Shown: positions 20,142-25,041 of the stretch, piece by piece
How positions within the stretch are numbered: the first letter of the stretch is position 1
Layout: each line of letters opens with the position of its first letter
Assembly (NCBI GenBank): GCA_030041095.1
Contig: JASHON010000181.1
Location: 1 to 64,000, forward strand
Direction: 5' to 3'
Origin: Terriglobia bacterium
GTDB taxonomy: Bacteria; Acidobacteriota; Terriglobia; UBA7540
DNA: 64,000 nucleotides
The notes under the pieces: model-generated
The model's input: the letters and a program-made list of their open reading frames with translations, nothing else
Database searches by the model: none
Told to the model about the DNA's origin: nothing
Made by a program: the position numbers and the translations under genes

Positions 20142-21827
20142 CTATGCTCGAACCGGAGTAACGTCCGCCATAAGAATCGGCGCAAAATGCATCAGCGTAA
20201 CGGTCGGTTTGTGCCCTAAAAAGCTTTCCGCCATTTCGAGCGCCTCAGTAACGTTTGCGGCGGTTTCCCATCCCATGGTTTGCGCTGCCAACCGGCTTTC
20301 AGCGCCAGCCACGATCACTTTCCCCACGTGTGCGCGCCCGTTTTCGCCCCAGTACCACATATAGAATGGGTGCACACCGTGGTACGCGTTTCCGGTGCGG
20401 TACATGCGGATGTACTCAGGGTTATGGGCAAACTCCGCTTCGTATTTCCGTTGAAGCTCGAAGGAGTCGCGCGTTTCCGGCAACAGCCGGTGGAAAAACT
20501 CGATATAGGAGGGATGGTGGTGTGGATCGAATTCGTTATAGAGCGGATGCGTGATAATCAGCACTCCGTTCTTTTTCACAACCGGCATGCCCCGGTACAT
20601 ATTGTGGAAATAACCCAACGCCATTGTCTGGACGAGAATGGGATTCAGAATCGAATGCACGTTGTACGGCATGATGAAGGGAATCCCATAGAGCACCACG
20701 TCCGTTTGTCCCTCGACCGGCACGCAATACTGCGCGTAGCAGTACGCAAGGGTTTTTTCGTGGACCGGAATCGTGGCGCCGGCGTGGATGGCGATGGGCT
20801 CATACGCTGCCGGAACAGCAAACAGGAGCTTCCTCTTCAACGGCCGCGGAATGGGCGCAAGGACGCGGCGGGTCGCGCCAAACATTGCGCGATCGAACGC
20901 GGAGAACCGGTCCTCGTTCTTGGTGAAGAACGCCATGCGCGGGTCGAACATGGCATTATTCAGAACGGTTTCGATGTGAAAGACCTTGAGGCTGCGGTTA
21001 ACCACCTCTCCGATGCGGTCGCAGGAGCGCGCCATTTCCGAGTGCGTGTGGTCGAAGTAGGAATCGCAGTTGAGAATGGTCTGCGGTGTGTGATGCGCTT
21101 GCAGCGTGGGATAGTCGCAAAGGCCGACGCCAACGGACTTGTTCCCACCGTCCATGGGTACGAGATTAATGTTGACGTAGACTAACAGGTCGGACTCTGC
21201 CGCACGGCGATTGATGCGTGCATGTTCGCCTCGATCCGTAACTCCTATCTCAACCATACTCCCCGGAGCTTCCCCGTCATGGTTGTAAAGCCGCTGAGGA
21301 TAGTAAGCTCGGAAAATTTTCGGACCCACTGCGCGCCGAATCTCCGATGCCGTCATCCGGCGATGGAATGACGTGGCAACGATAAGATGCACGTCGTCAA
21401 TGCCTTTGGCCGCAAGCATCCGAAGCAGCTCCGTCAGAACTGATTCGCGGATGTCCGGCCGTCTCATCATCGGCAGCGGAAGGGAGATGTCGTCTAACGC
21501 CACGGTCACTTTCATGCCCGGTTTGAGAATGGACTCCAGCGGATCCATGCCCTCTGGGTGCGCCAAGGCATAGCGGATGGCTAATTCCCTATGCCGCAGG
21601 CCGCGGATGGTGGGTTTGGGATAGACCACGCGCGTGCCTGCAGGTAGCTTGACACTCAGGAGGTCTTCTCCATACCACATCAGCCGGGGGGCGGAGCTTT
21701 CCCTGAGATGGACGACGCATCCTTCGGATGATACGAGCGCGTCGCGTCCTACTGCGTTCGGGGCGGGCTCACTACCGGCGACCAGGGTTTCCAGCGCGGC
21801 ATGGGGTTTGTCAAGATACGTTGTCAT
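20142..21827 (-). CDS. LarA-like (DUF2088) protein
   Basis: The 561-residue protein has the lactate racemase-type N-terminal domain (PGMKVTVALDDISLP, then IVATSFHRRMT) and a long C-terminal domain. Compared from memory with LarA, His155 in FHRR, His183 in YNHDGE, Lys230 in DGGNKS and the His pair 245-246 are kept. Lys230 corresponds to the lysine that bonds the nickel-pincer cofactor. Met225 stands where LarA has a second active-site histidine. It is therefore probably a LarA homologue acting on another 2-hydroxy acid, or a cofactor-free relative. No larB, larC or larE gene is in the window. Its start overlaps the end of the HAD gene by 17 bp, implying coupled translation. Confidence 0.8.
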   Translation of the reverse strand: MTTYLDKPHAALETLVAGSEPAPNAVGRDALVSSEGCVVHLRESSAPRLMWYGEDLLSVKLPAGTRVVYPKPTIRGLRHRELAIRYALAHPEGMDPLESILKPGMKVTVALDDISLPLPMMRRPDIRESVLTELLRMLAAKGIDDVHLIVATSFHRRMTASEIRRAVGPKIFRAYYPQRLYNHDGEAPGSMVEIGVTDRGEHARINRRAAESDLLVYVNINLVPMDGGNKSVGVGLCDYPTLQAHHTPQTILNCDSYFDHTHSEMARSCDRIGEVVNRSLKVFHIETVLNNAMFDPRMAFFTKNEDRFSAFDRAMFGATRRVLAPIPRPLKRKLLFAVPAAYEPIAIHAGATIPVHEKTLAYCYAQYCVPVEGQTDVVLYGIPFIMPYNVHSILNPILVQTMALGYFHNMYRGMPVVKKNGVLIITHPLYNEFDPHHHPSYIEFFHRLLPETRDSFELQRKYEAEFAHNPEYIRMYRTGNAYHGVHPFYMWYWGENGRAHVGKVIVAGAESRLAAQTMGWETAANVTEALEMAESFLGHKPTVTLMHFAPILMADVTPVRA

Positions 21828-22512
21828 GATCGTCCTTCTCTGACGGCAAATCGAGCACGGGCCATCCTCGCGCCATCGCCACTTTCTTCAACCTGCGGTC
21901 AGGATTGACGGCACAAGGTGAACCTACAGATTCGAGCATGAGCGCGTCTGAGGCGCTGTCGGAATAAGCCTTGCACTCACTCAGACTGGCATGCAAATCC
22001 TCGCACAGCCTTCCCATGGCCCGCACTTTCTGTTCTGCCGCAATCAGCGGCGGGACCACGGCTCCGGTTGCCTTGCCATCCTCGTAGACGAGCTGATTGC
22101 AAATGAAGCGGTCAAAGCCAAAGTAGCGAACGACAGGCGTTACCGCCACATCCAGCTCTCCGGTCACGAGAACCAATTGATACCCGAGCGCCCGGTCCCG
22201 CTCCAAAAGCGCACGGGCGCCAGGGTAAACAGACGGCCGGATTACCCTCTCGAACAGAGGTTCAGACAGTTCCTGCAACCACTCGCGGCGCATCCCGCGG
22301 TATTCACGGAAGAAAACTTCGTTGAACAGCCTTCGTGAAACATAGTCCAAAGCCAAGAAAGAGGGAACCCGCGAAACCAGCTTCACGAACTTCCAAATTG
22401 CTTGAGCCCGAGATGGGAAATGGCGAGCGAAAAATGCATAGCGCGTGACGATATTGCTCGAAACCAGCGTGCCATCGAGATCGTAAAAGGCAATTCGGGA
22501 TGGTCCGGACAT
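21811..22512 (-). CDS. HAD-IB family phosphatase (SerB/CicA-like)
   Basis: The 233-residue protein shows the HAD nucleophile motif FYDLDGTLVSSN (Asp10, Asp12), a helical cap, motif II in LVLVTGELD and motif IV in AYSDSASDALMLESVG. HAD-IB members such as SerB, or the HAD-PlsC fusions, dephosphorylate small molecules or lysophosphatidate. Placed between the acyltransferase genes and the LarA-like gene, a lipid phosphate is a plausible substrate. It overlaps the LarA-like gene by 17 bp. The upstream neighbour is the TOPRIM-like gene, 57 bases away. Confidence 0.85.
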   Translation of the reverse strand: MSGPSRIAFYDLDGTLVSSNIVTRYAFFARHFPSRAQAIWKFVKLVSRVPSFLALDYVSRRLFNEVFFREYRGMRREWLQELSEPLFERVIRPSVYPGARALLERDRALGYQLVLVTGELDVAVTPVVRYFGFDRFICNQLVYEDGKATGAVVPPLIAAEQKVRAMGRLCEDLHASLSECKAYSDSASDALMLESVGSPCAVNPDRRLKKVAMARGWPVLDLPSEKDDHDNVS

Positions 22513-22569
22513 CGCGCGCCAACGCAGCAGCCGCCGGCTGACCTAGCCCTTCACGCCACTAGGCAGCGG

Positions 22570-23127
22570 TCACGCCTCCGGAATTCTCCGCCACTCGGGG
22601 AGGGAGGCCGCCAACGACGGCGGCGACGGAGTCATGCAGCCTGGGTCAGGCCGCGTTCGTTTGTAGAGTTCCGCTGCCGCCGTCTTAACGTCCCCAGCAG
22701 TTGGCGCTGGCTGCGTGTAGTCGGTTACCTCATCCACGGGATACCCCTGCAAAGCCCGGATCCATGTTTCGACATGACGCTTCGGGATCAACACGAAGAC
22801 AGGCTCATCTTTACCGCGCTCGGTTGCGCCTGCATCGCGCAACGCGGCCGCTAGCTGGTCGGCACGGAATCCCACCGTATGGGTATCGGCGTCAACCATG
22901 ACTATCAGAAGCGCAGATGCTCGCCTGCCAAGTGACGACCGGCAGGCCCCGACTTCGCGAGCATAACGATCGCGAACGTATTTTTCTCCGCTTCCGCCAG
23001 GCCCTGTGGCAGCTCTCTCAAATCTGCACTTTCTCACATTATGCCCACAACGTTCGAGGTAGCGACGGACCAAGTTCTGCTGTTCAATATCTTCTACGAG
23101 TACGACCTTATTGGCGATTCGGAACAA
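22570..23127 (-). CDS. Putative TOPRIM-like nuclease partner of the adjacent ATPase
   Basis: The 185-residue protein resembles a recurrent family found beside SMC/OLD-like ATPases. Candidate metal ligands fit a TOPRIM fold: Glu12 at the end of the first strand (VVLVED), Asp79-x-Asp81 (VMVDADT) and Glu120 in IPKRHVETWI. The C-terminal PPSLAASLPEWRRI is also typical of the group as I recall it. Its start lies 20 bp inside the end of the ATPase gene, so translation is coupled and the two products probably form a complex. Nuclease activity is an inference from the fold, not shown. A non-catalytic partner is the alternative. Confidence 0.65.
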   Translation of the reverse strand: MFRIANKVVLVEDIEQQNLVRRYLERCGHNVRKCRFERAATGPGGSGEKYVRDRYAREVGACRSSLGRRASALLIVMVDADTHTVGFRADQLAAALRDAGATERGKDEPVFVLIPKRHVETWIRALQGYPVDEVTDYTQPAPTAGDVKTAAAELYKRTRPDPGCMTPSPPSLAASLPEWRRIPEA

Positions 23128-24262
23128 GTTCCCATCCCCGCGCGACGATTTCTGACGCCTTCAAACCGCTCCCTTCAGGCGGCCTGAACGGAAGAACTCG
23201 GGCCTCGCCTCCGCCTGGCCTGTCCAGCAGGACGCCGCCCTGGTCAGCAAGTTGGTCAAGTAGTTCTGGATGGTGGGAGACCAAAAGCACCTGGCCCCCT
23301 GTCTCGTCTACTCGATCCAGAAGCTTCAACAGCCACGGTTGGATCTCAGCCAGGGCAATGAAATTGTCGGGCTCATCAACGAGCAGCGTGCGGCCCTTGT
23401 CCACCGCACAGTAAAGCAGAACGTAGAGGGCGACGAGCACGCGCTGCCCCTCCGAGAGGTCGCTGAACGGCACCTCGACGCTCTTGCCGCCGGGGGTACG
23501 AATCGTCGCCTGGAGCATGCGCACGTCCAGCCCCGCTTCCCTCGAGTCGAGCGATTCCAAGCCGGGAACAGCCTCGCGCAGATGGGTTATCGCCTCGCCG
23601 GTTGCATTGCCACTTTCGAGCCGCAGGTGACGATACCAGTCAGCAAAGTTGCTCAGGTCCTTGGCCGGATCGCGCGATTCGTGTTCGGAGCGGGAAGACA
23701 TCGCCCAAGGGTTGATTTGCACCTGAAGCAATCGCGCTAGCCACTGTTTGAACCACGTGAGTTTTGTGTTATCCGGCCGGCTCTCGACGATCGCTAGTCC
23801 GGACTGGCGTGACGTGAACGCGAAACTGACCGTCGGCTCAGCCTTCTGCCAGTCGTTGAACAAACCAACAGTACCGTTCTCCAGGCGGAACAAGGGCTTG
23901 CCATTGTAATCAAGCGTCTCCCGCTTGACGTGGGCCTGGGGCTCGACTCCTGGGGCCGATCCTACGGCTGCATACTCGGGATGAGGGTCGACGACTTCGA
24001 GTGCGTACCTGTATTCGCCTTCGTTCCCGCTAACATCCATCTCGAACCGCTGCTCTGCCACGCTTTGCCAACGTGTACGCTTCCCGCCGAACGTTCTCGC
24101 GCAAGGCTCCCCGCGTATTGCAAAGTCGCGGAGCGCCGCGAGGACGTCAAATAACGTGGTTTTGCCGGTGCCGTTGCGGCCAATGATTAGCTGCTTGGCA
24201 AGGGGTTTGAATTCGAAGTTCACCAGACAACGGTAGTTGGTTGCGTAAAGCCGGGAAAGCAT
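23108..24262 (-). CDS. AAA/SMC-like ATPase (OLD/RloA/PtuA type)
   Basis: The 384-residue protein has a complete ABC-type ATPase site split by a long insert. Walker A is GRNGTGKTT (28-36), the signature is DLSEGQR (268-274), Walker B is TLLVDEPDN (292-300), and the switch His lies in LLVSHHPE (about 329-331). The N-terminal start (RLYATNYRCLVNFEFKPLAKQLIIGRN) is typical of AAA_21/OLD-like proteins in anti-phage systems. The ATG at 24262 has GAGGAT just upstream. It overlaps the TOPRIM-like gene by 20 bp. PlsY lies 122 bases upstream. No transposase or phage gene adjoins it. Confidence 0.85.
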   Translation of the reverse strand: MLSRLYATNYRCLVNFEFKPLAKQLIIGRNGTGKTTLFDVLAALRDFAIRGEPCARTFGGKRTRWQSVAEQRFEMDVSGNEGEYRYALEVVDPHPEYAAVGSAPGVEPQAHVKRETLDYNGKPLFRLENGTVGLFNDWQKAEPTVSFAFTSRQSGLAIVESRPDNTKLTWFKQWLARLLQVQINPWAMSSRSEHESRDPAKDLSNFADWYRHLRLESGNATGEAITHLREAVPGLESLDSREAGLDVRMLQATIRTPGGKSVEVPFSDLSEGQRVLVALYVLLYCAVDKGRTLLVDEPDNFIALAEIQPWLLKLLDRVDETGGQVLLVSHHPELLDQLADQGGVLLDRPGGGEARVLPFRPPEGSGLKASEIVARGWELVPNRQ

Positions 24263-24384
24263 ATCCTCATCCTACCATTTGGAGTAGAGCAGGGATGCCT
24301 AGCAGCAAGGCCGACAACGACTTCGGACCGTCCGCGTTGCGGAGAAGGCTGGCCCGGGTTTCTCTAGCGGAGCGCAGGCAGGAC

Positions 24385-25041
24385 TCACCCATGAGCCGGC
24401 ACCTCCTGACGGCGGGCGAAAAGGTGACGCAAGTTCTTTTGGTGCCTGACAAAAAGAAACGCGGTTACGACTGCGGCGCAGCCGGCGTCTACTCGCCCCT
24501 TGAACGAGAGCATGAGCAGTACGAAAAGCAACCAGGATGAAAGCGATGCCACGGCGCCTGCTTCCTTCCACTTCTTCCGACTTCCTGCAATTCGGATTGC
24601 CGTAAAGGCTATCAGGGCAATCACAGCGTAAACGGGATAAAGAACCAGCATTACCCCGGCGGAGGTGGCAATGCCCTTGCCCCCTTTGAACTTCAGCCAT
24701 GGCGAATAGCAATGGCCGAGTATGGCGGCAAGGCCCAAAGCCCACCTCTCCACAACCGATCGGGCGCCCGGATGCGCCCCCAGATAACCCGCCAGACCCA
24801 TTCCAGCAAGATTTTTGCTACTTGGGGGAAAGATCAACCAAAACACTGCAACGGCCAACGCGCCCTTTCCCAGGTCTCCGAGAAGCGCCCAAATGGCGCG
24901 AGACTTGCTAAAGCGCAATACGTTGTTGAAACCGGGGTTCCCGGAGCCCGCTTTGCGGATATCGATGCCCGTTCCGGCCATCGCCAGGACGGAGAATGGA
25001 ATGGATCCCAGCGCAAAGCAAATGATGATGCGAATGAGCAT
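24385..25041 (-). CDS. plsY: PlsY-like glycerol-3-phosphate acyltransferase
   Basis: PlsY is an integral membrane enzyme that moves the acyl group from acyl-phosphate to glycerol-3-phosphate. The 218 residues show five or more membrane helices and the PlsY motifs GSIPFS, AGSGNPGFNNVLR and GHCYSPWLKFKGGKGIAT. The NPGFNN form differs slightly from the usual NxGATN. It starts 12 bases after the acyl-AMP ligase fusion. It may be the organism's only PlsY, working with PlsX from the other cluster, or a paralogue devoted to this cluster; the window cannot decide. Confidence 0.88.
   Translation of the reverse strand: MLIRIIICFALGSIPFSVLAMAGTGIDIRKAGSGNPGFNNVLRFSKSRAIWALLGDLGKGALAVAVFWLIFPPSSKNLAGMGLAGYLGAHPGARSVVERWALGLAAILGHCYSPWLKFKGGKGIATSAGVMLVLYPVYAVIALIAFTAIRIAGSRKKWKEAGAVASLSSWLLFVLLMLSFKGRVDAGCAAVVTAFLFVRHQKNLRHLFARRQEVPAHG

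Follow-up and report, generated by a model that had tools for sequence, protein, structure and literature searches.

The window (the whole stretch of 64,000 nucleotides that was analysed) contains an ATPase gene and a gene for a small partner protein, and the question raised by this locus is whether the two form a defence module and, if so, how this relates to the known types. ATPase plus TOPRIM dyads recur as immune effectors; to our knowledge, biochemistry is available for few of them only (PARIS, OLD, Gabija and retron types). The present pair is small (384 + 185 amino acids), has clear invariant residues for mutation and is too weak on current family models for naming. Our reading, held with a probability of roughly 0.7, is that of a horizontally mobile two-gene conflict module in which an OLD/ABC-type ATPase sensor is combined with a compact TOPRIM-superfamily nuclease, the whole being a divergent relative of HEC-01 and PARIS. 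We see in it a divergent cousin of bacterial anti-phage modules already known and not a new kind of system.

The preliminary description of a complete ATPase frame overlapping by 20 bp a frame of 185 residues held for both genes, which are read from the minus strand with the ATPase gene first and the partner gene second (Table 1).

Table 1. Positions of the gene pair, the inserted stretch and the flanking genes in the window.
Feature	Position	Strand	Size and start	Assignment
ATPase gene	23108..24262	-	384 aa, ATG start	ABC/OLD-like AAA_21 ATPase; presumed sensor/regulator subunit; intact
Partner gene	22570..23127	-	185 aa, TTG start	predicted TOPRIM-like nuclease; presumed effector subunit
Overlap of ATPase and partner frames	23108..23127	-	20 bp	likely translational coupling
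plsY	24385..25041	-		one flank of the ancestral junction; syntenic in relatives
HAD-family gene	21811..22512	-		other flank of the ancestral junction; syntenic in relatives
Inserted stretch between HAD and plsY	22513..24384	.	1,872 bp	-32 to 168 bp in 7 relatives

The ATPase was matched over nearly its full length by the Pfam family AAA_21 (E 1e-21), and its Walker A (GRNGTGKT), signature (LSEGQ), Walker B (DEPDN) and switch (SHHPE) motifs were found to be intact, with the key residues of all four, the switch histidine included, being invariant among 7 homologues. HEC-01A profiles of PADLOC matched 7/7 ATPases of the family, with a best value of 1.5e-27 and 3.7e-15 for the window ATPase; since related ATPases are hit by the same profiles, a HEC-01A match alone is unspecific. 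The top PADLOC profile on the window ATPase was an AriA model at 2.7e-24. Matches of the AriA type are generic for the ATPase fold, about 100 families matching likewise, and identification as AriA was rejected for this reason and because the partner is not AriB. The mad3 profile of PADLOC matched the window ATPase at 3e-18.

For the partner, Pfam and NCBIfam profile searches revealed no match above a curated cut-off. DUF4276 reached E 0.036 with 14.7 bits, its cut-off being 30.2, and an assignment as plain DUF4276 was rejected because the score lies far under this value. HEC-01B of PADLOC matched the window partner at 7e-4 over residues 53-123, about one third of the profile, and its best match in the partner family, in another family member, was at E 1.6e-6. 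HEC-01B and DUF4276 are the nearest profiles, and the earlier view of the partner as unmatched to any named system needs correction, since distant relatives can be named. Further weak PADLOC matches of the partner family were to mad4 of MADS (one homologue, 0.0024), PDC-M38B, the PDC-M25 B subunit and RT-Toprim; each of the recurrent sub-threshold matches is to the effector subunit of an ATPase or RT pair, the pairs being of the ATPase + TOPRIM type for HEC-01, MADS and PDC-M38, and none of the matches is strong. The AriB profile was absent among the PADLOC matches of the window partner and its 12 homologues, and searches of solved structures with the partner returned no relevant chain.

The partner contains 24 acidic residues, six of which (E12, D13, D79, D81, E120 and E133) are invariant in the first 7 sequences compared. 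E12, D79, D81 and E120, which had been singled out beforehand from a single sequence as TOPRIM-like ligands, all belong to this set; the chance of four random acidic residues all falling into it is P = 0.0014. E12, D13, D79 and D81 were invariant throughout 13 partner sequences, and E120-T-W was present in 12/12 sequences covering that stretch. Judged by this conservation, E12, D79, D81 and E120 are real constraints. In the TOPRIM superfamily, a Glu follows strand 1 and a D-x-D motif follows strand 3; both placements were present in the partner, with E12 after a strand predicted at residues 6-11 and D79/D81 after one predicted at 73-79, at low model confidence.

Comparison of the partner profile with 14 DUF4276 proteins in hhalign gave E 2.2e-6 and a score of 45, with the two families in register, E12 lying on the first Glu of DUF4276, D79 on its Asp and E120 on its single invariant Glu. 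Upon repetition, the score was 40, compared with at most 18.7 for 60 column-shuffled profiles and 15.8 for the reversed profile. The alignment ends past the E-T-W motif, leaving the C-terminal part of the partner unmatched. Remote homology of the partner to DUF4276 is supported by these profile comparisons. AlphaFold models from a single sequence and from two sequences had mean pLDDT values of 49.5 and 49.0, which is too weak for testing the fold. The two-sequence model is arranged as b1-a1-b2-a2-b3-a3-b4, in which E12 directly follows b1 and D79/D81 lie where b3 ends; this is the TOPRIM order, but only suggestive at a pLDDT of 49. Foldseek searches with these low-confidence models (pLDDT about 49) yielded generic Rossmann, RecA and lumazine-synthase matches and no TOPRIM protein. 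The TOPRIM assignment of the partner is a prediction based on motifs and remote homology.

The surroundings of the pair are a run of lipid and fatty-acid genes, in which the order ligase-plsY-HAD-DUF2088 is conserved within the family. The plsY-HAD junction was closed in 7 relatives and filled by unrelated ORFs in two others (L023 and L024). The possibility raised at the outset that the pair belongs to the core genes of relatives was not borne out, the partner being absent anywhere in 24/24 genomes of the same genus or family that were searched. Because of this absence and the closed junction in 7 relatives, the pair is regarded as an insertion into the lipid-type gene run, as had been proposed. 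Most simply, it was gained in the lineage of the window at a permissive junction; it is a rare, mobile two-gene cassette. With a GC content of 0.59-0.60, the pair differs little from its neighbours (0.56-0.57), and base composition is thus no proof of foreign origin. A repeat search at the edges of the insert gave no convincing target-site duplication, and a promoter scan found none. Around the window pair there was no defence island, and no helicase, methylase or other MADS genes adjoined it.

In the same-genus genome G001, the plsY-HAD junction holds 2 copies of a 147-bp inverted-repeat element (L013 2353-2499 and 2558-2704). This non-coding repeat of about 147 bp, with terminal inverted repeats of 24-28 nt, is MITE-like and occurs in at least 40 copies in G001 and in 8 in the window genome; no clear copy was seen within the window.

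Whole genomes were searched with the partner sequence and then with the partner profile. In a 396-genome sample of the phylum of the window, relatives of the partner were found in 6 further genomes (7/396 with the window genome included), one of these being weak and lacking an ATPase match in the fetched stretch. A relative also occurred in G035, which is of the same class as the window genome. The phylum sample of G432, a Planctomycetota MAG (locus L009), yielded relatives in 13/392 genomes, 7 of them strong. The two samples likely represent two different phyla, with at least one relative belonging to Planctomycetota. In 15/15 loci with a clear partner match, an ATPase homologue of 30-45% identity was located immediately upstream. 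In relatives, the two genes overlap by 4-8 bp or meet within a few bases. The neighbours of the pair differed among the loci inspected, and recognisable defence islands were not seen around the relatives inspected, bar a Dam-type methylase in G244. By tblastn, the partner was not found on plasmids or phages, and 4 scans of viral contigs with partner queries were also empty. At L069 8945-10401 (G244), the apparent Dam-type adenine methylase gene directly follows the relative of the pair. The partner relative at L011 742-1146 (G035) carries an in-frame TGA; the copy may be decaying, or the assembly may be wrong at this point.

Among known systems, HEC-01 resembles the window pair in consisting of two overlapping genes with the ATPase first, in its HEC-01A matches and in its DUF4276 protein, with which the partner is in register. 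It differs in that the window partner misses a confident score and coverage on HEC-01B/DUF4276, with its C-terminal part unmatched, and in that the window-type ATPases are a clade of their own, which, together with the paralogue on contig C7 of the same genome, split 100/100 from the sampled DUF4276-linked (HEC-01-type) ATPases, including that on contig C148 of this genome. The small partner is distantly related to the HEC-01B/DUF4276 group without being a member of it. HEC denotes a Hma-embedded candidate, and several HECs, including HEC-06, are antiviral (PMC12988326, PMC10855318); in our literature search, HEC-01 itself was not the subject of any paper.

TOPRIM-linked OLD-ABC dyads are a recurrent, established conflict architecture, with PARIS and Gabija as the studied cases (PMC12839542). 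In PARIS (AriA/AriB), as predicted for the window pair, an ATPase and a TOPRIM-type nuclease are encoded by separate adjacent genes, and PARIS, so arranged, is termed Class 4 OLD (PMC10568477, PMC12796447). Unlike in PARIS, no AriB match was obtained, and the window partner, with its 185 residues, is shorter than AriB, whose functional residues extend past position 230 (R236; PMC12409363). The OLD/PARIS logic of an ATPase with a TOPRIM-like partner, put forward in the preliminary description, is supported by our data. An ABC-type ATPase and TOPRIM-type residues are likewise shared with Gabija/Class 1 OLD, whereas in the window they are divided between two proteins with no helicase beside them, the neighbours being plsY and HAD. 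Gabija consists of the GajA ATPase-TOPRIM fusion and the GajB helicase. MADS, PDC-M38 and PDC-M25 are similar insofar as mad3 matches the ATPase and mad4 and the B subunits of PDC-M38 and PDC-M25 match the partner family; they are dissimilar insofar as no methylase or MADS genes lie beside the window pair and the partner matches are all weak.

Taken as a conflict module, the pair likely serves in anti-phage defence, which would probably be abortive. PARIS is the best model for the mechanism, with DNA cutting as in GajA/OLD as the alternative. In PARIS, AriB is held by an AriA hexamer and set free by a phage trigger; as a dimer, it then cleaves tRNA-Lys through a two-metal mechanism (PMC11455837, PMC12409363). 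For a comparable release-and-cut mechanism of the window pair, we see even odds. In the resting cell, an oligomerised, ATP-bound ATPase would keep the nuclease in check, and a signal of infection would alter the ATPase such that the nuclease is released or activated. The nuclease would hold Mg2+ or Mn2+ via E12, D79, D81 and E120 and cut nucleic acid, the target being host tRNA or other RNA (as for AriB) or DNA (as for OLD/GajA), and the cutting of nucleic acid may then stop phage growth by abortive infection.

An OLD-type ATPase-nuclease pair could instead have a housekeeping or stress role outside immunity, in the processing of nucleic acids, in repair or in the control of the cell cycle. 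There is a precedent in Cran1, an OLD ATPase-nuclease that takes part in the progression of the archaeal cell cycle but apparently has no role in defence against viruses (PMC12796447), and the window pair is without a surrounding defence island. A core function is a misfit for the patchy presence (7/396 genomes of the phylum, 0/24 near relatives) and the varied neighbours, and we consider such a role unlikely. Mobility, the overlapping genes and the nuclease-like second protein would also suit a toxin-antitoxin pair in which the small nuclease is the toxin, the ATPase is the antitoxin and retention serves chiefly the persistence of the pair itself. PARIS has been described in toxin-antitoxin terms (PMC11455837). 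This explanation overlaps with the defence model, the main difference being the trigger, but it leaves the first gene as a large ATPase that has kept all its catalytic motifs, beyond the needs of an antitoxin; its probability is judged to be low.

That the partner is not a nuclease at all, being a Rossmannoid protein that shares the acidic motifs and acts, for example, as a scaffold or nucleic-acid-binding adaptor, would agree with the low-confidence models matching only generic Rossmann, RecA and lumazine-synthase folds. The invariant acidic positions, on the other hand, are of exactly the metal-ligand type and are aligned with those of DUF4276, which makes a non-catalytic partner highly improbable. 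With regard to how far the conflict module departs from its relatives, we tentatively consider it possible, if somewhat doubtful, that the 'ETW' partner represents a compact family of TOPRIM nucleases that has so far gone unrecognised and has an ATPase clade of its own. The pair would then be an anti-phage system in its own right, occurring sparsely in more than one bacterial group, and its substrate or trigger would differ from those of PARIS, Gabija and HEC-01.

In the phylum sample of the window, an AAA_21-type ATPase precedes the DUF4276 protein in nearly all cases, and the window genome itself contains a canonical HEC-01 pair of AAA_21 and DUF4276 on contig C148 (G000:C148:54687-56464; L073 6688-8465), for which PADLOC gave 7e-125 with HEC-01A and 1.4e-75 with HEC-01B. 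This pair adjoins a long SMC-like gene. At G000:C7:84860-86514 (L072 6861-8515), a third pair was found, the ATPase of which is sister to the window family; in its 163-aa partner, which gave no PADLOC match, an early E-D-D motif is followed further on by D-F-D. Three different ATPase plus TOPRIM-like pairs in one genome provide a natural comparison of related sensors with different effectors. Another divergent version was seen at L111 1189-3113 (G252), where a remote ATPase is paired with a 207-aa partner displaying the motifs E, D-R-D and E-L-E-T-W.
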